The notes under the pieces: generated by a model
What the model was told of the DNA's origin: nothing
Database searches by the model: none
The model's input: the letters and a program-made list of their open reading frames with translations, nothing else
NCBI GenBank assembly: GCA_900638155.1
Contig: LR134495.1
Coordinates: forward strand, 1,488,001-1,552,000
DNA length: 64,000 nt
Source: Mannheimia haemolytica
GTDB lineage: Bacteria; Pseudomonadota; Gammaproteobacteria; Enterobacterales; Pasteurellaceae
Direction of reading: 5' to 3'
Made by a program: the position numbers and the translations under genes
Part shown: piece after piece, positions 1,248 to 48,786 of the stretch
How positions within the stretch are numbered: position 1 is the stretch's first letter
How the letters are laid out: every line of letters starts with the position of its first letter

Positions 1248-1619
1248 ATGGAGTACCTATCAACAATCCTTAAAGCTCATATCGGCTTAGCTTATATTAG
1301 TTTAATTTTATTATTAACCCGTGGATTTTTATCATCAAAAATGGTGGATTGGCGACAATATAAAATTTTACGAATCGCACCGCACGCAGTCGATACGCTG
1401 TTATTAGTTACCGGTATTGCAGCAGTGGCTATTTTTCTAGCTTATGACTTTTTCACTTTAGCACAATTTAGCTGGCTATTACCTAAGCTGTTATTCTTAG
1501 TGTTATACATTATTTTTGCCACTAAAGCGTTTAAAAAAGGGCAACCATTCTCGCTCAAATTTTACCTGTTAGCCGTGGTGTCATTCTTATTAGTGATGCT
1601 AACCGCTACTTTTCACTAA
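1248..1619 (+). CDS. SirB2-family inner-membrane protein
   Basis: This is a small four-helix membrane protein of about 123 residues. The hydrophobic segments are around LAYISLILLLTRGF, VDTLLLVTGIAAVAIFL, LLPKLLFLVLYIIF and FYLLAVVSFLLVML. Length and layout fit the SirB2 family (named for a Salmonella invasion-gene regulator; the biochemical role is unknown). A GTG in the same frame at 1239 overlaps the darP stop. I chose the ATG at 1248 because a GGAG sequence lies eight bases upstream of it. It sits 12 bases before yqgA and is likely part of a darP-sirB2-yqgA-ubiX operon. Confidence 0.8.
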   Translation: MEYLSTILKAHIGLAYISLILLLTRGFLSSKMVDWRQYKILRIAPHAVDTLLLVTGIAAVAIFLAYDFFTLAQFSWLLPKLLFLVLYIIFATKAFKKGQPFSLKFYLLAVVSFLLVMLTATFH

Positions 1620-1631
1620 ATAAGGAAAATT

Positions 1632-2345
1632 ATGATCGGACCTTTTGTGAATGCCGGTGCCATTATTTTAGGGGGAGTGATAGGGGCTTATTTAGGTAGC
1701 CGTTTGCCTGAACGTATTCGTACCAGTTTGCCACTTGTGTTTGGGCTATGCTGTTTCGGCTTAGGTATGATGCTGACCGCCTCCGTAAAATATATGTCTG
1801 CGGTTGCATTAGCATTGATTTTAGGCACGATCATCGGTGAGCTGATTTATTTAGAAAAACGAATAGGCAAAGTTGCCGGTTTAGCTCGTGGTTTAATTGA
1901 CCGCCTATTCCCACCGGTGCATAGTCTTTCCCAAGAAGAATTTTTAGAGAAATTTATTGCTCTGCTTGTACTGTTTTGTGTGAGCGGTACCGGCATTTTT
2001 GGTGCAATAAAAGAGGGAATGACGGGTGATCCGAGCATTCTTTACATTAAATCGATTTTAGACTTCTTCACTGCAATGATTTTCGCCGCTTCATTAGGTT
2101 ATGCCATTGCAGCGATCTCAGTACCGTTAATTCTTGTGCAAGGGATTTTAATTCTACTAGCAACGGAAATAATGCCTTTAACTACTGCCAATATGATGGC
2201 AGATTTCTCCGCAACTGGCGGTTTACTGCTATTTGCAACCGGTTTTCGCATTTGTGGAATTAAAAACTTTCCGGTCGCAAATATGCTACCAGCACTACTC
2301 CTTGCGATGCCAATGTCTTATTTCTGGGAATGGTTGGTACATTAA
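1632..2345 (+). CDS. yqgA: DUF554 membrane protein, YqgA orthologue
   Basis: This 237-residue polytopic inner-membrane protein has about seven hydrophobic segments. It matches E. coli YqgA in several blocks I can read: [47 protein letters not shown] [32 protein letters not shown] and [11 protein letters not shown]. The function of the family is unknown, and a transporter role is only an inference from the topology. Its TAA stop overlaps the ATG of ubiX by one base (TAATG), indicating translational coupling. Confidence 0.87.
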
Positions 2346-2911
2346 TGATAAAAAAACGTATTATTGTCGGCATTAGTGGGGCAAGTGGTTTCCAATATGG
2401 CTATAAAGTACTTGAACTGCTGAAACCGTTTTCAGAAATTGAAACCCATCTTGTAATCAGCAAAGGTGCTGAACTCACTCGAACTCTCGAAACGAATTAT
2501 ACCCGAGAGGCTCTGCACGATTTAGCTGATGAAATACATTCGCTAAACAATGTCGGAGCAAGCATTGCCAGTGGTTCATTTAAAACCGAAGGTATGATTG
2601 TTGCCCCTTGTTCTATGCGAACCCTTGCCGCTATAGCCAACGGTTTGAGCGATAATTTGCTGACCCGAGCGGCAGATGTGGTGTTGAAAGAACGGCGTAA
2701 ATTGGTATTAATGGTGAGAGAAGCTCCGCTCAACCTTGCTCATATTGACAATATGCGAAAAGTGACCGAAATGGGCGGCATTATTTTCCCACCCATTCCG
2801 GCGTTTTACCAAAAGCCAACCAGCCTCGATGAAATGGTCACCCACAGCGTAAGCCATGCCCTTTCCCTGTTGGATATTGACATTCCAAATACCCCACATT
2901 GGGGAGAATAA
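2345..2911 (+). CDS. ubiX: UbiX/Pad1-family flavin prenyltransferase
   Basis: This 188-residue protein of the UbiX family makes prenylated FMN, the cofactor of UbiD-type decarboxylases. The N-terminus is the flavoprotein Rossmann start [11 protein letters not shown]. The family blocks [20 protein letters not shown] (Ser/Cys by the flavin), [21 protein letters not shown] and [10 protein letters not shown] are all present. The sequence is closer to the KpdB/EcdB (phenolic acid) branch than to classical UbiX, so its partner decarboxylase may not be UbiD; none is in the window. I start it at the ATG overlapping the yqgA stop rather than at the upstream in-frame codon at 2330. It is followed by a strong hairpin. 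Confidence 0.86.
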
Positions 2912-2943
2912 TTAGGTTTATCTTTTGCTTTTTGAAATGCTAA

Positions 2944-2973
2944 AATACCTGATAAAAATTATCAGGTATTTTT
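2944..2973 (+). terminator. Hairpin after ubiX, abutting the next ATG
   Basis: A perfect 12-bp stem (AATACCTGATAA, loop AAA, TTATCAGGTATT) is followed by TTT and then directly by the ATG of the UPF0306 gene at 2974. It has the form of an intrinsic terminator for the upstream operon. Because the only Shine-Dalgarno-like bases (AGGT, 2964-2967) are inside the stem, it may also control translation of the next gene. Confidence 0.7.
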
Positions 2974-3414
2974 ATGCACAATCCAATCCCGTCCCATATT
3001 TTAGATTTCATTCAAACGAACCACGTTATCAATATTGCAGCTCATACCGAACAGGATTTTTGGGCGGCAAACTGCTTTTATGCTTTTGACCAAGAAAATG
3101 CTCGCTTGATTATCTTAACCGCCAAGAAAACCAGACACGCTAGCTTAATGCTTGAAAACCCACATATTGTCGGCACAATTTGTGGGCAAATTGAGAAGAT
3201 CAACGAGATCGAAGGTATCCAATTCTCCGCTACCGCCGAATGTTTAGAAGATAAACAAGCCGAAAAAGCCGCTTTGCAAATTTATTACCAAAAACACCCG
3301 CTTGCACGGCTTAAGCCTAGTGATGTTTGGGTATTATCATTCAATACCATCAAGCACACCGGTAATAAAATTATGTTTGCGAAAAAGACGATTTGGGAGA
3401 GAAATATAATTTGA
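2974..3414 (+). CDS. UPF0306 family protein (YhbP-like, FMN-binding split-barrel)
   Basis: This 146-residue protein of the YhbP/UPF0306 family has a pyridoxamine-phosphate-oxidase-like split barrel. Typical blocks are NIAAHTEQDFWAANCFYAFD, LIILTAKKTRHASLML, VGTICGQIEKINEIEGIQFS and the C-terminal NKIMFAKKTIWER. The biochemical role of the family is not established; flavin binding is inferred from the fold. The start codon follows immediately after the ubiX hairpin with no free ribosome-binding site, which is unusual. It stands alone between the ubiX operon and the convergent siderophore regulator, four bases from that gene's stop. Confidence 0.85.
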   Translation: MHNPIPSHILDFIQTNHVINIAAHTEQDFWAANCFYAFDQENARLIILTAKKTRHASLMLENPHIVGTICGQIEKINEIEGIQFSATAECLEDKQAEKAALQIYYQKHPLARLKPSDVWVLSFNTIKHTGNKIMFAKKTIWERNII

Positions 3415-3417
3415 AAC

Positions 3418-4290
3418 TCAAATAATACCTTTAACTTTATCCCGTTTGATTTGGCTTGGTGTTATCCCAAAAGTTCGCTTAAATGCCGTTGAAAAATTCT
3501 CCGAATTAGCATATCCGGCAAATTCAGCCGCTTGTGTGACACTCTGTCCTTGTAATAGTAATTTATAAGCTTGTTCTAATTTAGAACGCCTTAAATACGC
3601 AAAAATAGAGGTTTTATGGTAATGCTGAAATTCATTTTGCAATGTAGTTACATTGGTATGGAAATATATTGCAATCTGTTTCAAACCCCAACCGTCAAAT
3701 TTGCCGCTATCTAACGATTCCGTTAATTTCTGTACTCGATCTTTTTTTAACTGGGGAGCATGCGTCAGCTGAGAAAAAGCACTTGCTAATAAAGCTAATA
3801 ATTTGCCTTCTTTCTCAAGCAGCCCAAATGGTTGCATTTGCTGTTCTGACACAATATCGTGAATAAGTTTTAACATACTCTGAGTCAAGATAATTTGGTG
3901 GGCTTTTAAATGCTGTTTAAAATGATGATAACTTGACAAATTCAACTGGCTTTCTATGAGCCATTTAGGGTAGAGAAAGATAACAAGCTCTTTTTGAAGT
4001 TGCCCTTTCCTAAAAATTTTACGCCCCATTTCGGCTCTATTTAGCGGTAAAAATGCGGCTTGAGGTTTTAAGCTTGCATCTAATTCAAATAATCTAGAAT
4101 TAAAATTAATTTCCGAACGCCCACTCAATAATATAACCAATCTTAGCCCGGCTTCAAATTCCGCAGGTTCTTGCTCTACGGTTTCAGTGACTGAAATCTC
4201 TGTATATTTCAGCATAAGATCTGAACGTAGTCGGTATAAATGTGAAAAACCTTTCATTTGGTTAGCTTCATCAATCAAGATTGTTTTCAT
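3418..4290 (-). CDS. AraC-family regulator of the siderophore receptor (PchR-like)
   Basis: This protein of about 290 residues has a variable N-terminal sensor domain and a C-terminal AraC/XylS double helix-turn-helix. The first helix region is LKQIAIYFHTNVTTLQNEFQ and the second SVTQAAEFAGYANSENFSTA, ending FKRTFGITPSQIK. It is divergently transcribed from the TonB-dependent receptor, an arrangement shared with PchR, AlcR and FetR, which activate receptor genes when the ferric siderophore is present. I infer the same role here. Two adjacent ATGs (4293, 4290) precede MKTILIDEANQMKGF and neither has a convincing ribosome-binding site. An in-frame extension to 4371 would run into the receptor promoter, so I rejected it. 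Confidence 0.82.
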   Translation of the reverse strand: MKTILIDEANQMKGFSHLYRLRSDLMLKYTEISVTETVEQEPAEFEAGLRLVILLSGRSEINFNSRLFELDASLKPQAAFLPLNRAEMGRKIFRKGQLQKELVIFLYPKWLIESQLNLSSYHHFKQHLKAHQIILTQSMLKLIHDIVSEQQMQPFGLLEKEGKLLALLASAFSQLTHAPQLKKDRVQKLTESLDSGKFDGWGLKQIAIYFHTNVTTLQNEFQHYHKTSIFAYLRRSKLEQAYKLLLQGQSVTQAAEFAGYANSENFSTAFKRTFGITPSQIKRDKVKGII

Positions 4291-4368
4291 CATTAAAAAT
4301 TTTTTTTCGCACAGTAAAAATTTTATTTTACAAAGGTTTTTTGCATAAAAACAAGATATTATTATATT

Positions 4369-4383
4369 CAATAATCATTCTTA
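4369..4383. promoter_or_regulatory. Candidate Fur box between regulator and receptor
   Basis: The 15-mer CAATAATCATTCTTA matches 10 of the 14 scored positions of the 7-1-7 Fur motif TGATAAT-n-ATTATCA. It lies just upstream of the receptor start in the divergent intergenic region, where iron control would be expected. The match is moderate, and AT-rich DNA gives chance hits. Confidence 0.45.
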
Positions 4384-4398
4384 TTTAAGGAAAAAATA

Positions 4399-6474
4399 AT
4401 GAAAATAAAAAAATATTCACTCTCTTTAATCACTTTAGCGATTGTAGCTCCTCAAGTATTAGCAGAAACAGCCTCTCAAGCAGAACTCACTACTATTGAT
4501 GTCAAAGAAAAGCTAGCGGCTACTACAGGCTATATTCCTGTTTATACGACTGTAGGAACCAAAACATTAACCTCTTTGGCTCGTACACCTTTTAGTATCA
4601 ATGTTGTCTCTGATGATTTAATGAATGACCAAGCTGTTCGTTCTGTTACTGATGCAGTGGCTTATACCTCTGGTATGATGGGTGGCTATCGTGGTAACAA
4701 TTCGCTTATCGAAATCTCCATTCGTGGCATTGGCAATAAAAGTGATGGCGGTACAATTCCGACCTATTTAAACGGTTCTCGCTACCAAACTGCATTTGAA
4801 ATCGATCCGTTCTTCTTAGAAAGCATCAATGTGATTAAAGGCCCAAACTCCATTTTATACGGGCAAGCTAATCCCGGTGGCGTAATGGATATTATCACCA
4901 AAAAAGCCGGCAGTAACCCACATCGCCATTTGCAATTTGTGGTGGGAAACCATCAACGATACCAAGTCGGGCTGGATATTGAAGAAAATCTATCCAATAC
5001 CCTATCTGCTCGTTTAATAGGTCAATTAGAACGAACAAACTGGAATACCCAATTTGTAAAAGAAAAAGGCGGTGCTTTTGCTCCGAGCCTTTTATGGAAA
5101 CCCACTACCAATACAGAACTTAATGTTTACGCTTACTATGCTAAAAAACCGAAAGCCGGCGATCGTAACTTCTTACCAAAAGAAGGGACTATTAATAGCG
5201 TAAACGGGAAGAAACTACCCTATGATATGTTCCTCAGCGATCTGAACTATCACGGTTTGAAAGCCGAGCAAATGCAAGTAGGTTACAATTTCTCACATAA
5301 ATTTACGCCAAACCTAACGTTCCGCCAAAATGCAAGTTACCATAATGGCGAAGAGAATTTCAAAAATCTAGTTTATTGGGGCGATGTTGGTTCGGTTTTA
5401 GAACGTAGAGCTCGCCGTTGGGATGTCAAAACCCAAGAAATCAACTTAGATAACCAATTAGAATGGGCATTTAGCACAGCAAATATAAATCATACCTTGT
5501 TAGCCGGTATTGATTATAAACGGGTGCGTGAAGATCTTGATAACTATATGGGGATTGCCCCTGATTTTGATTGGCAGAACCCTGTTTATGGCGTGACCGT
5601 TACTGAGCCTAGCTTATTTTCAAGTGAAGTGAAGCATTTAAAACAACTCGGGGTTTATTTGCAAGATCAAACAGAAATCGGTAATTTTGACTTCCTGTTA
5701 GGCGGTCGTTACGATCGAGCAAAAAACAGTAACCAAGATCGTTTGAACAGTAAAACAGAGAATAACCAAGAAGGAAAATTTACTTGGCGTACCGGCTTAG
5801 TTTACAACTTTGAAAACGGTATAGCTCCGTATATCAGCTACAGCACTTCTTTTGTGCCATCGGCTGAAAAAGATGCTCAAGGAAATTTCTTAAAACCAAC
5901 AACTGCTGGGCAATGGGAAGTGGGAATGAAATACCAACCAACCCAAGACACCTTACTGACCTTAGCAGGATTTAAAATTACACAAAAAGATTTAGCCAAT
6001 TATCAATGGCAGACCCGCTCTTATGAGCAAATTGGTGAAGTACAAACTAAAGGGATTGAAGTGAGTTTAAATCAGCAATTATCCGATAAATTTTCAATAG
6101 CGGCTTCTTATGCTTACTTGAAAAAAGAGATTACTGCAGATAAAGATGGCTCTACGATTGGAAAAACGCAATGGGGAGTGCCTCGCCATCAAGCATCACT
6201 TTGGGCAAAATATAAATTCTTTGATAAGCTGACCGCCGGTGTAGGTGTACGCTATATGGGAACGACTTTTGGCAATAACCAAAATACTTTTACCGTCCCC
6301 GCATACACACTTTACGATATGCTACTGGCTTATGATTTTACGCCTAACTTAAACTTACAGCTCAATGCACAAAACCTGACGAATAAAAAATATGTCGCAA
6401 GCTGTGCGAATAATTTTTCCTGTTTCTATGGAAAAGATCGCAATTTAAGTGCAACGTTAAACTATCATTTTTAA
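4399..6474 (+). CDS. TonB-dependent siderophore receptor (FhuA/FoxA-like)
   Basis: This 691-residue outer-membrane receptor has a signal peptide (cut after about VLA-ETA, residue 22). A short TonB-box-like stretch (TTIDVKEK) follows, then a plug domain to about residue 180 (SINVVSDDLMNDQ, SILYGQANPGGVMDIITKK). The rest is a 22-strand barrel ending in the aromatic terminus TLNYHF. It resembles the TIGR01783 siderophore receptor group. The C-terminal SCANNFSCFYGKDRN, with two cysteines, is like the FhuA group. Its ligand cannot be read from sequence, but the esterase just downstream points to a catecholate triester such as enterobactin or a relative. A small hairpin separates the two genes. Confidence 0.9.
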   Translation: MKIKKYSLSLITLAIVAPQVLAETASQAELTTIDVKEKLAATTGYIPVYTTVGTKTLTSLARTPFSINVVSDDLMNDQAVRSVTDAVAYTSGMMGGYRGNNSLIEISIRGIGNKSDGGTIPTYLNGSRYQTAFEIDPFFLESINVIKGPNSILYGQANPGGVMDIITKKAGSNPHRHLQFVVGNHQRYQVGLDIEENLSNTLSARLIGQLERTNWNTQFVKEKGGAFAPSLLWKPTTNTELNVYAYYAKKPKAGDRNFLPKEGTINSVNGKKLPYDMFLSDLNYHGLKAEQMQVGYNFSHKFTPNLTFRQNASYHNGEENFKNLVYWGDVGSVLERRARRWDVKTQEINLDNQLEWAFSTANINHTLLAGIDYKRVREDLDNYMGIAPDFDWQNPVYGVTVTEPSLFSSEVKHLKQLGVYLQDQTEIGNFDFLLGGRYDRAKNSNQDRLNSKTENNQEGKFTWRTGLVYNFENGIAPYISYSTSFVPSAEKDAQGNFLKPTTAGQWEVGMKYQPTQDTLLTLAGFKITQKDLANYQWQTRSYEQIGEVQTKGIEVSLNQQLSDKFSIAASYAYLKKEITADKDGSTIGKTQWGVPRHQASLWAKYKFFDKLTAGVGVRYMGTTFGNNQNTFTVPAYTLYDMLLAYDFTPNLNLQLNAQNLTNKKYVASCANNFSCFYGKDRNLSATLNYHF

Positions 6475-21588: not shown

Positions 21589-21597
21589 AGCATAAAA

Positions 21598-21636
21598 GAC
21601 CGCTTGGTATATGAATTAACCATACAACAAGCGGTC
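21598..21636. terminator. Convergent terminator made of inverted uptake sequences
   Basis: GACCGCTTG (21598-21606) pairs with CAAGCGGTC (21628-21636), with a TGGTAT/ATACAA-type inner extension. It separates the convergent VanZ-like gene and the nitronate monooxygenase gene and can serve both strands. Confidence 0.72.
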
Positions 21637-21650
21637 ACTTTTTACCAAAA

Positions 21651-22598
21651 TTATGCCATCAACTCATCAATCAATTCTTTCACCGTTTTAATGCGGTCAA
21701 TCGCTGAAATACCATTGCCCACCGACACATAGCCGTTGTCAAAATCGCCTTCCAGCATACCCAAACGCATTCCTGTGCCAGCGTTCATTACCTTAGCAAT
21801 CTCACTACGAGTTGCTCCATTTTCACTCATTGCAAAGCATTTTTTCGCTAATTCAGTCGGCAGTGAACGGTAGTAATGGGGTTCAGTGCGGAATAACAGC
21901 AGATCATTGGCATTTGCCTCCACAATCCAGTTTTTCACTTTTTCGCTTGCACGGCATTCTTCGGTGGCGATAAATGCCGTGCCAATCCACACACCTTCCG
22001 CCCCAAGCGTTAAGGCAGCCTGCACCGCTTTTTTATCGGCAATGCCACCAGCGAGCATCATCGGCAAATCCACCTTGCCGACAAATTCCGCCAGCACATT
22101 AAAACTGCCTACTTCTTTCATCGGCAGAGTACCACCCTCATCAAAGCCGGTCAGCACCAAAATATCTGCACCGAGCTCTTCGGCTTTAAGTGAGTCCGCC
22201 AAGTTAGGATTAGGCAAACGACAGATGATTTTAATGCCCGCCTGTTTAAATTTGGCGTAAATCTCTTTATCAAGCCAGCCGTTATCCAGCACCACCGGCA
22301 CGCCTTCTTCAATGATAAGATTGACCATCAGCGGTATCATTTCTAAATTATAAGAAATCATAAACGGCACACCAAAAGGCTTATCGGTCAATGCCTTAAC
22401 CTTGCGGATTTCGTTACGCATACGGTTAATCACTTCATCATTGGAAGTCGGATCGGTCGTCTGCCCTGCGTGTGGTGCTAAAAAACCAAGCCCACCAGCT
22501 TCGGCAACGCTTGCCACCAGATGTGCATCGGTCAGCCAAGACATTGGGGCTTGGACGATGGGGTGCTTGATATTTAAGATTTGGGTAATGCGGTTCAT
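21651..22598 (-). CDS. Nitronate monooxygenase (2-nitropropane dioxygenase-like)
   Basis: This FMN-binding TIM-barrel protein of 315 residues begins MNRITQILNIKHPIVQAPMS, the family start. FMN/phosphate-binding blocks MLAGGIADKKAVQAALTLGA and EGVWIGTAFIATEE are near 180-210. The family oxidises alkyl nitronates such as propionate-3-nitronate, a respiratory poison. Related proteins (FabK type) are enoyl-ACP reductases, but the neighbouring LysR gene argues for the detoxification type. The ATG at 22598 has GGAAAA in front. In-frame extension to 22718 is rejected. GC content is visibly higher than that of the gene upstream of it. Confidence 0.86.
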   Translation of the reverse strand: MNRITQILNIKHPIVQAPMSWLTDAHLVASVAEAGGLGFLAPHAGQTTDPTSNDEVINRMRNEIRKVKALTDKPFGVPFMISYNLEMIPLMVNLIIEEGVPVVLDNGWLDKEIYAKFKQAGIKIICRLPNPNLADSLKAEELGADILVLTGFDEGGTLPMKEVGSFNVLAEFVGKVDLPMMLAGGIADKKAVQAALTLGAEGVWIGTAFIATEECRASEKVKNWIVEANANDLLLFRTEPHYYRSLPTELAKKCFAMSENGATRSEIAKVMNAGTGMRLGMLEGDFDNGYVSVGNGISAIDRIKTVKELIDELMA

Positions 22599-22762
22599 TG
22601 GATTTTCCTGTTTGAGTAAAAGAATTAAGTGTATTTTAACGGTTTTGGATTTGGGAGAGAATGAGTGAAAATGGAAAGGTTGTTTTCGGATTTGGAAAAT
22701 TAAACTTGAAAAATTCATAAATAGCCCCCATCTATAACACTTTATTATTCAGGAGAGACTAT

Positions 22763-24538
22763 ATGAATCAAAAATATAATAAATTAGAGTGGCTTTTGCA
22801 AACCAAAGAAACTCGTCAATATTTTGAGAAAAGTACTTGGGTTACTTTACGAGCATCCAATCATCAAGAACAAGGCGAATGCAGAGAGATAGGCTTTGTA
22901 GAAGAATGTTTTGGCTGTTATTCCGTTGCATTTCCTCCTGAGCATAAAGAGGAGGCTTCGGAATTGACTTGGTCTCAATTTGGTGGAATGGAAGTTCTGC
23001 CTTATGCATATGATGATGGTCATTATTCGCCTATTGAAGAATATGAAATTGGCGATAAAGAACCAGTGGGTGTTAATTTGATTTTTAATCATCCTCAACC
23101 TGTAATAGGTGGAAATAAATGGATTATCAACCCAGACCTAATTGTGGCTTTACGCCTAATTAAAGAAGGAAATAATTGGGTAAGACCAGAAGAAAATTTT
23201 GTTATTGTTATTCAAGAAGAGTTGGATTCTGATGGAAATCACATTTCTATCAGAATTAAAAGAGAGTTTTTATTGGATTATCTAGCAGCAAGAAATTTAT
23301 CTTTGCGTTTGTCATATTATAGACGAAGAGTAGAAAATGTTGATGAATTATCAGCAAGCCCATATTTTTCCCTTCAAAATACACAAGAAGAAAGAGATGG
23401 AGGTAGATTTGAAATATTAATTCGTAATTTAAATGATATTTATGGTGGTGATTGGTCTATGTTTCGTGTATGGAGAACCGATATAGATGAAAATGACGAT
23501 GCCCCGCTTATGACAGAAGAAACCGATCAAAATACAGCCTATGAACAAAAGCAAGGCTATGAAAGTGGCTATGTTGGCATTAGAGTTGAAAGTGAGTTTT
23601 GGAGAGATGAATGGATTGAACACAAAAACCAAAGTATTAGAATTAGGGGAGATAAGGATTTAAATTTGCCTTCTTTTATTGTGGAAACAGATGGTTCACG
23701 CCTAGCTTCTGAAAAACTCAATAACGAAAATGTGGGCAGATGGCTTTGGTTTAGAGTAGGTATCATTAATGAGCTTTTGAATTGTCGTGGGTTTAAACTT
23801 GAATGGTACACAGCACAAACTGGGGCTATTCATTCTACTTCGGGATACAAAACACATTTTGGTATTAATAATTCAGATTTAATCACGGTTTATGCCTATG
23901 ACATTGCAAAACTTGATTCTTGGGAACAACATCTTTGGGCTGGTCATAATGTTGTGCCTGATGGTAAAGTATCATCAGAATTATTAGATTCACAAGTAAA
24001 AGCTCAGCCTGCCCAAACTTATGCAGTAGAGGATTTGTTATTTAAGCATTTGGATTTATTGGAGCGAGATTTCTTTAAGAAATACAATAAACCTTTATTT
24101 TCTCATAAGTTAGATGAGCAAATGATTCAAAATATTTCTCGCTTTTCAAGTACAGACAAGGCATCATTATTGAGATTAGCCAAAGATTTAGTGAGGGTTT
24201 TTACTGATAGGCTTAATGTAAAATCTTTAAGAGAAATATCACAACATAAAGATAAGGATAAGCTAGGTTCAAATAAATTACTTCAAGATATTATTTCTCA
24301 GAAAATAGGAGACGATAAAGCTAAATCTTTATTTTCTAATATTTTTGGAATTTATGATATGCGAGTGGGGGACGCACACCCAACAGGTTCAAAAATTGAT
24401 GAGGCAATTAAATTAGCAGGAATTGATGAAAATTTATCATACTTACGACAAGGAGAGCAGCTTATTAGAAATTTTCAAAAATCAATATCTTATATTGGAT
24501 ATGTTTTATTTGTACTTGATGAGAATGTAAAACAATGA
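22763..24538 (+). CDS. Unknown 591-residue protein with HEPN-like C-terminal motif
   Basis: I cannot assign a named family. The protein has no signal peptide or membrane span. Residues 1-200 are mixed and acidic. Residues about 270-410 contain a tryptophan-rich core (RWLWFRVGIINELLNC, LEWYTAQTGAIH, HFGIN, LDSWEQHLWAGHNVVPDGKV) that looks like a conserved domain. The C-terminal 180 residues are helical and contain MRVGDAHPTGSKIDEA; R534-x4-H539 fits the R-x4-6-H motif of HEPN RNases. It is much more AT-rich than its neighbours (13 G+C of 60 at 24301-24360 against 35 of 60 at 24541-24600). It has a strong AGGAGAG before the ATG and overlaps the LysR start by ATGA. It may be a transferred single-gene defence system. 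Confidence 0.8.
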   Translation: MNQKYNKLEWLLQTKETRQYFEKSTWVTLRASNHQEQGECREIGFVEECFGCYSVAFPPEHKEEASELTWSQFGGMEVLPYAYDDGHYSPIEEYEIGDKEPVGVNLIFNHPQPVIGGNKWIINPDLIVALRLIKEGNNWVRPEENFVIVIQEELDSDGNHISIRIKREFLLDYLAARNLSLRLSYYRRRVENVDELSASPYFSLQNTQEERDGGRFEILIRNLNDIYGGDWSMFRVWRTDIDENDDAPLMTEETDQNTAYEQKQGYESGYVGIRVESEFWRDEWIEHKNQSIRIRGDKDLNLPSFIVETDGSRLASEKLNNENVGRWLWFRVGIINELLNCRGFKLEWYTAQTGAIHSTSGYKTHFGINNSDLITVYAYDIAKLDSWEQHLWAGHNVVPDGKVSSELLDSQVKAQPAQTYAVEDLLFKHLDLLERDFFKKYNKPLFSHKLDEQMIQNISRFSSTDKASLLRLAKDLVRVFTDRLNVKSLREISQHKDKDKLGSNKLLQDIISQKIGDDKAKSLFSNIFGIYDMRVGDAHPTGSKIDEAIKLAGIDENLSYLRQGEQLIRNFQKSISYIGYVLFVLDENVKQ

Positions 24539-25404
24539 ACCTCAACACCCTCCGCCTTTTCGTTGCCGTTATCCAGCACGGCAGTCTCTCCAAAGCCTCC
24601 GAGCGATTAAATGTGCCGATTGCGACCATTAGCCGTCAAATTGCCGATTTGGAAAAAGAGCTGAATATTCAACTCTTTGACCGCCAAAAATCAGGCGTTA
24701 AACCCACAATGGCAGGGCAACGCCTGTATGAACAGGTGCATTTATCCATTGAACAGCTTGCCACTGCCAAAGAAGTGCTCTTTGAAGAGCAAGGCAATTT
24801 AAAGGGTAAATTACGCCTGTCCGCAAGCCCCGCCTGCGAGCCTGTTTTGGCGTGGATAGCTGATTTTCAGGTAGCCTACCCACAGGTACAGGTGCATTGC
24901 ACGCTGACCGACCGTCTTTTGGATTTGTCGGCAGATGGCATTGATGTGGCGTTTCGGATTGGGCAGTTACACGGCGAACAGTTTATCGCCAAAAAAGTGG
25001 GGCAAATCGGCAGTAAATGGGTGGCACACCCTGATTTATTGGCACGATTCGGCACACCCAATACCATCAAGGATTTAAAAAATTTCCCCATTGCCGCTTG
25101 GGCAAAAAATGAAGCCAGCGTCATTACACTTGGCACCGGCAGACAAGCGGTAGAAATTCCCTATCTTTTTGCCAGCAATGACAGCTATGCCATTGAATAT
25201 ATGGCAAAACAGGGCAAAGCAGTGGCTCTGCTTGCCGACAGCACGGTGGATAGATTGGTGGCAGAAAATGGCTTGGTGGAAGTCTTGGGCGAAACGGAAA
25301 ACCCTAAATTTGATTTGACGATGATTTATGCCTCCCATCGTTATCCGTCTAGCATTGTGCGGGCGTTTGTAGGGTTTGTGTTGGAACAAGTAAAAGCTAA
25401 TTGA
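24535..25404 (+). CDS. LysR-family transcriptional regulator
   Basis: This 289-residue protein has an N-terminal winged HTH (MNLNTLRLFVAVIQHGSLSK, then ASERLNVPIATISRQIADLE) and a periplasmic-binding-like effector domain (LRLSASPACEPVLAWIADFQ onwards), ending at usual LysR length. Most LysR genes stand divergent from their target. Here the nitronate monooxygenase would be the divergent partner had the 591-codon gene not come between them, so that enzyme is the likely target. The GC content is high like the monooxygenase and unlike the gene overlapping its start codon. No other target is evident. Confidence 0.87.
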   Translation: MNLNTLRLFVAVIQHGSLSKASERLNVPIATISRQIADLEKELNIQLFDRQKSGVKPTMAGQRLYEQVHLSIEQLATAKEVLFEEQGNLKGKLRLSASPACEPVLAWIADFQVAYPQVQVHCTLTDRLLDLSADGIDVAFRIGQLHGEQFIAKKVGQIGSKWVAHPDLLARFGTPNTIKDLKNFPIAAWAKNEASVITLGTGRQAVEIPYLFASNDSYAIEYMAKQGKAVALLADSTVDRLVAENGLVEVLGETENPKFDLTMIYASHRYPSSIVRAFVGFVLEQVKAN

Positions 25405-25416
25405 GTATTTTTAAAG

Positions 25417-25460
25417 AAAAATGACCGCTTGTGGATTTTAAACTCACAAGCGGTCATTTT
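25417..25460. terminator. 17-bp perfect hairpin built on inverted uptake sequences
   Basis: AAAAATGACCGCTTGTG and its exact inverse complement (25444-25460) enclose a ten-base loop and end in T/A tracts on both sides. It terminates the LysR gene on the plus strand and nrdR on the minus strand. Confidence 0.9.
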
Positions 25461-46698: not shown

Positions 46699-47763
46699 TT
46701 ACCAGTATACACGCATACCAACACCGATAGCTTTGTTAGTTGATTTGCCTGTGTATTCATAACCATTAGTTACTTTATTGTAACCCTTAGTACGAGTATA
46801 AGAACCCTCAACAAAAGCAACTACTTGTTTATGGAATTGGTAGTCAACACCTAGTAAGAAGCCATGAGTTTTTTCTTTACTTACGTTTTTCACTTTTTCA
46901 CGCTCATATAGGTAGTTACCATATACTTTAGATGCTGGTACTACTTGGTATTCAAAGTTTGGAGATACATAGAAAGCATTTCCTTTCTCATTTTCTACTT
47001 TTTCATGACGATAGCCAGAGTCAACACTTAATTTTAAGTCACCAAATTTATAACCAACAGAACCTAATACACCATCTTTACGGTGCTTAGTGCTATCAGT
47101 AGCTGTTTTGTAGTTTGTATGACCATAAGCTGCACGTAAATCCCAGTTATCTACAGTATATAATGCACCAATGCCGTATGCATTTTGAAGTGAATTTACT
47201 AATACTTCACCAGCTGCATCACGATCTTGTGCAAAGTTATAGTTTGCACTTACATGTAAGTTTTCAACACCACGGTAGTCATAACGAATAACTTGGTTAC
47301 CATCGGTTTGAATATAATCACCTTTTGGATTAATACCGTAGTTGTAATCTACTGATTGACTTAAATCATCAGCAATCGTTAATTGACGACCAAAAGTTAA
47401 TTCACCATATTGCTTACTACCTAAACCAACATAAGCACGTTTAGTATATAAATCACCAAAACCATCATCACTGGTATTTTTGTTAAAACGGAACTCAACA
47501 CGACCTAATGCATAGAAATCTTGAGCTAAATCATGTTTTACTCTCACACCAAAACGTGAACCAGCATTACGGATTCCTGTGTGTGCATCTTTTTTAGTTT
47601 TAACAACATTATGATTGTCTAGCTCTTTAGAATTAGTTCTATCAAGAACAATACGTAAAGAACCATCAAAATCTACCTTTGAACCTTCTGCATCGTAAAC
47701 GGTGGTTGCTGATGCTGACGCTGCGAACGCGGTTACTGCTAATGCAACTAATGTTTTTTTCAT
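46699..47763 (-). CDS. General porin, OmpP2/OmpC-like
   Basis: This 354-residue outer-membrane protein has signal peptide MKKTLVALAVTAFAASASAT and a 16-strand trimeric porin barrel of the Gram-negative porin family (Pasteurellaceae P2/OmpC group). Evidence is the start TTVYDAEGSKVDFDGSLRIV, the L3-adjacent strand GLGSKQYGELTFGRQ, repeated alternating strands and the terminal aromatic VGMRVYW. It is a major surface antigen and diffusion pore. The longer reading from 47772 is rejected in favour of ATG 47763, which has AAGGTG in front. Its leader region is long and contains a CRP site. Confidence 0.92.
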   Translation of the reverse strand: MKKTLVALAVTAFAASASATTVYDAEGSKVDFDGSLRIVLDRTNSKELDNHNVVKTKKDAHTGIRNAGSRFGVRVKHDLAQDFYALGRVEFRFNKNTSDDGFGDLYTKRAYVGLGSKQYGELTFGRQLTIADDLSQSVDYNYGINPKGDYIQTDGNQVIRYDYRGVENLHVSANYNFAQDRDAAGEVLVNSLQNAYGIGALYTVDNWDLRAAYGHTNYKTATDSTKHRKDGVLGSVGYKFGDLKLSVDSGYRHEKVENEKGNAFYVSPNFEYQVVPASKVYGNYLYEREKVKNVSKEKTHGFLLGVDYQFHKQVVAFVEGSYTRTKGYNKVTNGYEYTGKSTNKAIGVGMRVYW

Positions 47764-48267
47764 AATTTTCACCTTAGATTTTATATGTTATATGATAAGT
47801 AATTACCCTCATTAAGGTGTAAGAGTAATTATCCAAGATACAATGTATTAGCAAATACGCCTAACATTGTTTTCGCAAGAATAATTGCAAAAAGAAAACT
47901 CAATGTCAATAGTTCAAACTCCAAAACAAAGACACCATTTTTTCTTTTAAAATCAATAGATTACATTCATAGCATTTCATTTGGAGAAATTTTGCTCATT
48001 TTTAGCAGAAAAAATGAAGTACATAACACATTGATAAATAAGCGTTTTTTATATTTAATTTGATATAGTTCAAACTTATCAGAAAGTTCATTTATTTTGT
48101 GACATAGTTCACATTTTTGATATTTAATTTCTTTTTTGCCTGTTTTTCACACACAAATTGTAAGAAATTAGTAAAAATCAACCACTTGTACGCAAGGTGT
48201 TTTGCTTTAAAATAGAAGTTATATGAAATAAAATTCACTTAAATTTTCTTTATTGATAACATCAACC
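47764..48267. other. 504-base non-coding region between divergent porin and priC
   Basis: A long AT-rich intergenic region, as is usual before an abundant porin. It holds the porin promoter (near 47900-48060 by position), the priC promoter and one excellent CRP site. No open reading frame with a ribosome-binding site is visible. A single variant uptake core (AACCACTTGTACG) lies near 48180. Confidence 0.55.
48098..48113. promoter_or_regulatory. Consensus CRP site
   Basis: TGTGA-CATAGT-TCACA is a perfect CRP core (TGTGA-N6-TCACA), flanked by TTT on both sides. It is 335 bases from the porin start and 155 from priC, so either could be the target; carbon control of the porin is the likelier biological guess. 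Confidence 0.8.
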
Positions 48268-48786
48268 ATGCAAAAAAAACTTTTTATCGCCCAAATAAAA
48301 CAAAACCTCTCTGAATTAAGCGTATTTTCAACGGATAATATTTTTCTGAATTCACCCTATTTCTCACAGCAAACCGGTTTGGTGAGTGTGTTCATTGCTG
48401 AAATTGAAAAAACAGTTGAGCTATTACTGAACCAAACTGAGGTGCTATACAGTGAATTTTACGCTGAAAAATTGGTTAAACAATTTGATGCATTAAAGAA
48501 TGCCGTAGAAAAAATCCAAAGTAAGCCAGAATCAGCTCAATTCCATTCTTCCTATCAATTTTCTCCAAATATTCATCGTTTAGCGCCCAACAAACGCTTA
48601 CAAGAATACCGTAAAGCGTTACGTGCATTAAATGAGAAAATTAGCTGGCTAGTTGAACAAAATTTAAACACGCAAAATGAAGCAACTAAACAAACCCTGC
48701 AAAATCAAATTACAGAGACAGAATATCGCAAAATGAAATGTTTAAAAGCAATTGAAGATTTAGAACAAGAGTTGCTATTTAAATAG
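48268..48786 (+). CDS. priC: Primosomal replication protein PriC
   Basis: This 172-residue helical protein is the replication-restart factor PriC, which loads DnaB at stalled forks with SSB and Rep. Family traits are the C-terminal RLQEYRKALRALNEKISWLV and two long helical hairpins (residues 1-60 and 110-170). It is slightly basic and the length is typical. The ATG at 48268 starts MQKKLFIAQIKQNL; an upstream ATT-type codon at 48253 is not credible. Its stop codon is four bases from the 3' end of the convergent tRNA-Cys gene, so there is no room for a terminator. Confidence 0.86.
   Translation: MQKKLFIAQIKQNLSELSVFSTDNIFLNSPYFSQQTGLVSVFIAEIEKTVELLLNQTEVLYSEFYAEKLVKQFDALKNAVEKIQSKPESAQFHSSYQFSPNIHRLAPNKRLQEYRKALRALNEKISWLVEQNLNTQNEATKQTLQNQITETEYRKMKCLKAIEDLEQELLFK

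Follow-up and report, generated by a model that had tools for sequence, protein, structure and literature searches.

Why does a single AT-rich gene stand between a divergent pair of genes in Mannheimia haemolytica, and what might its product do? The gene encodes a protein of 591 residues and lies in a stretch of 64,000 nucleotides (positions 1,488,001 to 1,552,000 of contig LR134495.1, assembly GCA_900638155.1), which is referred to here as the window and supplies the coordinates used below. The gene is accessory, alternates with Avs2 at one locus, has relatives beside or inside defence operons, and encodes an invariant R-x4-H motif. Structure models predict that its N-terminal domain resembles the C-terminal region of Avs3. 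We think it on the whole probable that the protein acts on its own in anti-phage defence and that its gene moves as a single-gene cassette; the protein would combine Avs-like sensing with a HEPN-type ribonuclease (RNase) and act by abortive infection.

A locus with at least three states

The features of the locus are as follows.

22763 to 24538, plus strand: gene for the 591-residue protein, a member of an unnamed, widespread and patchily distributed family; ATG start, TGA stop
22703 to 24528, no strand: variable segment, placed by blastn ends and junction letters
21651 to 22718, minus strand: left flank, nitronate-monooxygenase-family gene (PF03060, 2.8e-59); bounds are those of the open reading frame (ORF) caller
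24535 to 25404, plus strand: right flank, LysR-family regulator gene (PF03466 and PF00126), native to the locus
22751 to 22757, plus strand: ribosome-binding site AGGAGAG, ending five bases 5' of the ATG, as read from the sequence

Comparison with sister genomes shows that the space between the flanking genes is variable. In two of them (G003, L090, and G007, L091), the flanking genes are adjacent, with only a short intergenic spacer and no insert. In a third (G001, L089), what lies between positions 22702 and 24529 of the window is exchanged for a gene encoding 1378 residues, together with pieces of an IS1595-type transposase, and PADLOC identifies this gene as Avs2 (2423 bits). As the locus occurs empty, with Avs2 or with the 591-residue gene, it is a small hotspot of three or more states. 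A preliminary description of the window had proposed horizontal gain, and this comparison shows the gene to be an insertion.

The Avs2 arrangement (L089, G001:C19:26000-34500) spans positions 1257-6075 of that locus and includes two IS1595-type transposase pieces. A partial Avs2 from M. haemolytica (P0241) is 99% identical over the searched region. The LysR gene of G001 is 98% identical to that of the window and carries an in-frame stop, so that the regulator of G001 is apparently broken. The start of the left-flank gene that matches its G001 counterpart lies near 22598.

Composition sets the gene apart from its surroundings. Its G+C content of 0.336 is the second lowest among 54 non-overlapping window ORFs (median 0.409), and its G+C content at third codon positions is 0.211, against a median of 0.361. 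The earlier base counts were reproduced, with 13 G+C of 60 at 24301-24360 inside the gene and 35 of 60 at 24541-24600 in the GC-richer flank. Rather than being universally conserved with normal codon use, the gene is present in one of 61 relatives, its own genome alone, and its codon-usage distance ranks third highest among the 33 window ORFs longer than 900 nucleotides. Other AT-rich ORFs of the window, near a tRNA-Cys/tRNA-Gly pair, are ordinary: a porin (46699-47772) and a PriC-like protein (48253-48786).

The divergent neighbours, the strong ribosome-binding site and the ATGA overlap with the LysR start (24535-24538) are all present as first described. The coupling to LysR that had been read from that overlap does not hold. 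The window, G001 and the gene-free G007 share the sequence AAAACAATGAAC before and at the LysR start, and G003 differs there. Consequently, both the ATGA overlap and the final codons of the insert derive from the older flank, and we reject a functional coupling, as the overlap bases precede LysR in G001 and G007 too.

Inverted ACAAGCGGT-like repeats, at about 21597-21638 and 25423-25460, flank the block of three genes on each side. We take these to be the DNA-uptake signal of some Pasteurellaceae, and their position on both sides would be compatible with natural transformation as a route of cassette exchange.

A large and patchily distributed family

A protein search with the window protein returned at least 1377 matches at E<=1e-3, a lower bound obtained by scoring the 7996 best candidates, and a second search with divergent members as queries returned at least 888. 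The 120 matches listed share 64-95% identity with the query over 97-100% of its length, and none has a precomputed Pfam domain; the closest among them, at 95% identity, is from M. haemolytica. The gene is found in five of 140 Pasteurellaceae genomes (counting its own genome and one weak 25% match), in 20 of 5426 Escherichia coli genomes and in 14 of 72,556 plasmid records, 12 of these at >=80% coverage. None of 50,697 phage records matches the gene at the protein level. An origin as a prophage gene was rejected, as these records also lack a megablast match to 21651-25404. In a collection of bacterial and archaeal species, 65 loci were found, assigned by record titles to Proteobacteria, Nitrospira-type, Chlorobi-type, Planctomycetota and other groups. 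Copies split into two ORFs in three loci (L099, E. coli A31; L064; L072) suggest recurrent loss.

No sequence model in the libraries used names this family. At E<=1, searches of Pfam, PADLOC, NCBIfam and PDB sequences all came back empty for the window protein, none of the PADLOC-DB 2.0.0 families matching at that threshold. A 96-member profile searched against the PDB found nothing convincing (best E 0.034, an ATP synthase chain).

Genomic contexts of relatives

Relatives have entered several kinds of defence operon. In Actinobacillus vicugnae (L024, 8287-13174), a relative interrupts a type I-C CRISPR-Cas operon, with cas7 and cas4 before it and cas1 and cas2 after it. Another follows a type I-C cas3 (L063), and a partial copy follows a type I-F cas3 (L075). 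On a fusobacterial plasmid (L005), a type I restriction system has a relative between its hsdR and hsdM-hsdS genes, preceded there by one further gene. The preliminary description had inferred a defence or stress module, and the location of relatives inside or beside CRISPR-Cas and restriction operons agrees with this.

Nine plasmid regions were viewed of the 14 matches. Restriction or other defence-type genes occur in four of them (L001, L002, L005 and L008), and L003 has a helix-turn-helix (HTH) gene immediately upstream and a BrnTA pair. No clear defence-type genes were seen in L004, L006, L007 and L009, the last of which covers just 24% of the query. Three of the 20 E. coli loci were viewed; the gene is the first after the integrase in a MobQ-bearing element at tRNA-Asn, and in the third it is split into two ORFs.

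Other relatives occupy plain chromosomal sites. One, 36% identical, stands alone as a single-gene insertion in a biosynthetic cluster (L071, 9140-13752), between genes that we take to be ilvH (acetolactate synthase small subunit) and ilvC (ketol-acid reductoisomerase). Another lies one ORF from rpoB (L048).

A constant partner gene was not seen. Neighbours were scanned at those loci that offered at least 9 kb on each side (33 of 65). The near set comprised 131 of 132 proteins, one having been dropped for its length, and the far set 124. Counting ORFs of at least 100 residues, the commonest family occurs in five (Pfam) or four (PADLOC) of the 131 near neighbours. PADLOC defence matches occur among both near and far neighbours, within the 25 commonest families of each set. 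Since there is no constant partner, the gene looks like a one-gene module.

Domain architecture

Three features of the protein are central to its interpretation.

22769 to 23629, plus strand: N-terminal beta-rich domain, predicted to be like the Avs3 C-terminal region (confident model against 8dgc residues 1849-2076; model residues 3-289)
24005 to 24535, plus strand: C-terminal all-helical domain, a putative HEPN RNase (residues 415-591; models, weak HEPN matches)
24362 to 24379, plus strand: R534-x4-H539 motif, RVGDAH, from the family alignment

The motif was correctly placed in the preliminary description (codons 24362-24364 and 24377-24379), and its conservation is close to complete. In 301 of the 302 family proteins aligned (duplicates included), both R534 and H539 are conserved; the exception, L065, lacks the region. 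K474 is identical in all 302 and D537 in 296. In a 63-member alignment that includes the most divergent relatives, only K474, R534 and H539 are invariant in the C-terminal domain. Directly after R534, 246 of the 302 proteins have V, L, I, M or G and 55 have H, N or Q. The tryptophan-rich core that had been noted earlier is likewise real: W26, W70, W139, W327, W387 and W392 are each >=99% conserved. They are among 49 such positions, and the middle part (residues 290-414) contains 21 of these.

Two structure models (predicted local distance difference test scores of 92.3 and 93.3) show an all-helical C-terminal region, with R534-x4-H539 at a helix end in the bundle. HEPN RNases are marked by Rx4-6H, with a usually polar residue after the arginine, in the part of PMC3710099 used here. 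The family shares the motif, its position at a helix end and the all-helical domain; it differs in the usually hydrophobic residue after the arginine, in a weak fold match and in having no recognised HEPN sequence family. A structure search with the C-terminal domain matched HEPN entries weakly, and the top VIA rows were aspartase/fumarase bundles, which we read as generic; the absence of a clear HEPN match is read as excluding nothing. A viral structure library gave no match at E<=1e-3. HepS, from the Salmonella prophage Gifsy-1 (PDB 9oij and 9oik), matches the C-terminal domain only, at a Z score not above background, and differs in being a prophage gene with about 200 residues in the PDB entries.

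A 531-residue protein in another genome (G142, L097, 1303-2898) has 25% similarity to query residues 368-517 and a C-terminal RSSSSAH (R-x5-H). Neither Pfam nor PADLOC gives it a match at E<=0.001, and it possibly represents a distant sister family of the same layout.

The link to Avs rests on structure and locus, not on sequence statistics. The N-terminal model has the Avs C-terminal-region fold, as in Avs3, and Avs2 holds the same chromosomal site in G001. No profile comparison was significant. With hhalign, single Avs sequences gave a best probability of 0.9%, five of six aligning on unexpected segments; a six-sequence set gave 0.5% (residues 139-226 on the Avs2 end); and 121 Avs2 C-termini, for which 120 homologues were collected, gave about 0.1% (residues 157-186). 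Hidden Markov models (HMMs) were run in both directions with reversed decoys. The top match of the 96-member N-domain HMM to Avs was a decoy; the top two of the 63-member HMM were real, but at E 0.44 and 0.85. The Avs2 C-terminus HMM reached a best E of 0.1 against the family, with all 25 rows listed real and nearly all at residues 127-177. Our own profile aligner gave, at one gap setting, a short, unrelated-looking alignment equalled by 45 of 60 null runs and, at the other, a co-linear one (residues 9-185 with Avs2 1167-1338) equalled by eight of 40 shuffles. Some of the best Avs alignments fall where the domain layout would place them (about residues 130-226), and others fall elsewhere.

The family also differs from Avs in size (591 residues against about 1400-2000) and in order, with the recognition-like domain first and the effector-like domain last. 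Across 63 members, six families were matched at E<=0.1, none of them a STAND NTPase; one member has a weak match to NNH7, a NACHT-associated helical domain (E 0.013).

Alternative explanations

Three other readings were weighed. The protein could serve in defence while its C-terminal bundle is not a catalytic HEPN domain, the R-x4-H being structural or another activity residing in the conserved residues 290-414 (W327, G354, F366, N369, D380, W392, E406). The retention of only three invariant residues in the C-terminal domain is what one would expect of a catalytic motif in a domain that evolves fast, and makes this unlikely. Alternatively, mobile elements might carry the protein as a stand-alone toxin or stress-response RNase, as an addiction or genome-stabilising module and not a phage sensor. 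Carriage on plasmids (the 14 records) and integrative elements fits this, as does the HTH gene directly upstream in L003. However, no constant partner accompanies the gene (ORFs shorter than 100 residues being left out of that count), the protein has a large, strongly conserved N-terminal half, and the gene alternates with Avs2; we consider this reading improbable.

Membership of the ApeA defence family, which pairs an aromatic-rich beta N-terminal domain with HEPN, is the third. The general layout is the same: ApeA-NTD1 has about 300 residues, mostly beta, with conserved aromatics (PMC3710099, in the part used), and the C-terminal HEPN domain carries Rx4-6H. One relative, P0219, is annotated by a source as 'ApeA N-terminal domain-containing'. 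Profile similarity is nonetheless absent in either domain. All 63 scanned members, P0219 included, lack matches to PF18862 (ApeA_NTD1) and PF18739 (HEPN_Apea) at E<=0.1; hhalign with ten ApeA proteins gave a probability of 0.03%; and scores in our own profile test were equalled by 10 of 25 shuffles for the C-terminal domain and 16 of 25 for the N-terminal domain. ApeA membership is thus largely refuted at the sequence level, and very improbable indeed.

Proposed function and significance

The preliminary description of a HEPN-like, LysR-coupled, single-gene defence or stress module is partly supported: the accessory single gene and its invariant R-x4-H stand, and the coupling does not. As an anti-phage protein, it would recognise a phage-made protein through its N-terminal domain, in the manner of the Avs C-terminal sensor. 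Recognition would release the C-terminal HEPN-type RNase, and H539 and R534 would cleave host RNA, either tRNA or mRNA. This cleavage would stop growth and phage production, that is, cause abortive infection. An ATPase or partner gene does not appear to be needed. The title of 9oik, HepS with lambda J, gives a precedent for the binding of a phage tail protein by a HEPN protein, HepS presumably being one. PMC9879122, in the part used, describes a Gifsy-1 HEPN gene that may be HepS.

A C-terminal sensor is described for Avs2, and recognition of the large terminase for Avs1-3, in the part of PMC12724215 used; the corresponding part of PMC12931631 gives STAND proteins generally a C-terminal sensor. 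A tentative and rather doubtful extension is that the protein is an 'Avs without the ATPase', in which a recognition module like the Avs C-terminal region precedes a HEPN RNase and is joined straight to it, the reverse of the Avs order. Such a one-chain immune receptor would be minimal in design: it would sense a conserved phage protein, with the large terminase as first candidate, and kill by cutting RNA, with no need for NTP-driven oligomerisation. It would also have spread through many phyla as a single-gene cassette.

A one-gene HEPN defence protein is a kind already known. The family, and its reversed pairing of Avs-like and RNase-like domains, is unnamed in the libraries used and in literature titles and abstract starts, supplements lying outside the search. 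The family is probably an undescribed way to stop viruses, in a comparison that leaves out the four HEPN systems that DefensePredictor reports in the part of PMC13092281 used.

A large family, spread over many phyla and without a name in the libraries used, that alternates with Avs2 at one locus and enters CRISPR and restriction operons singly is a strong candidate for an immune protein not yet described. If its N-terminal domain senses phage proteins like the Avs C-terminus, then such a module can operate in the absence of the STAND ATPase, and a protein of 591 residues would permit a direct test of how the module functions.
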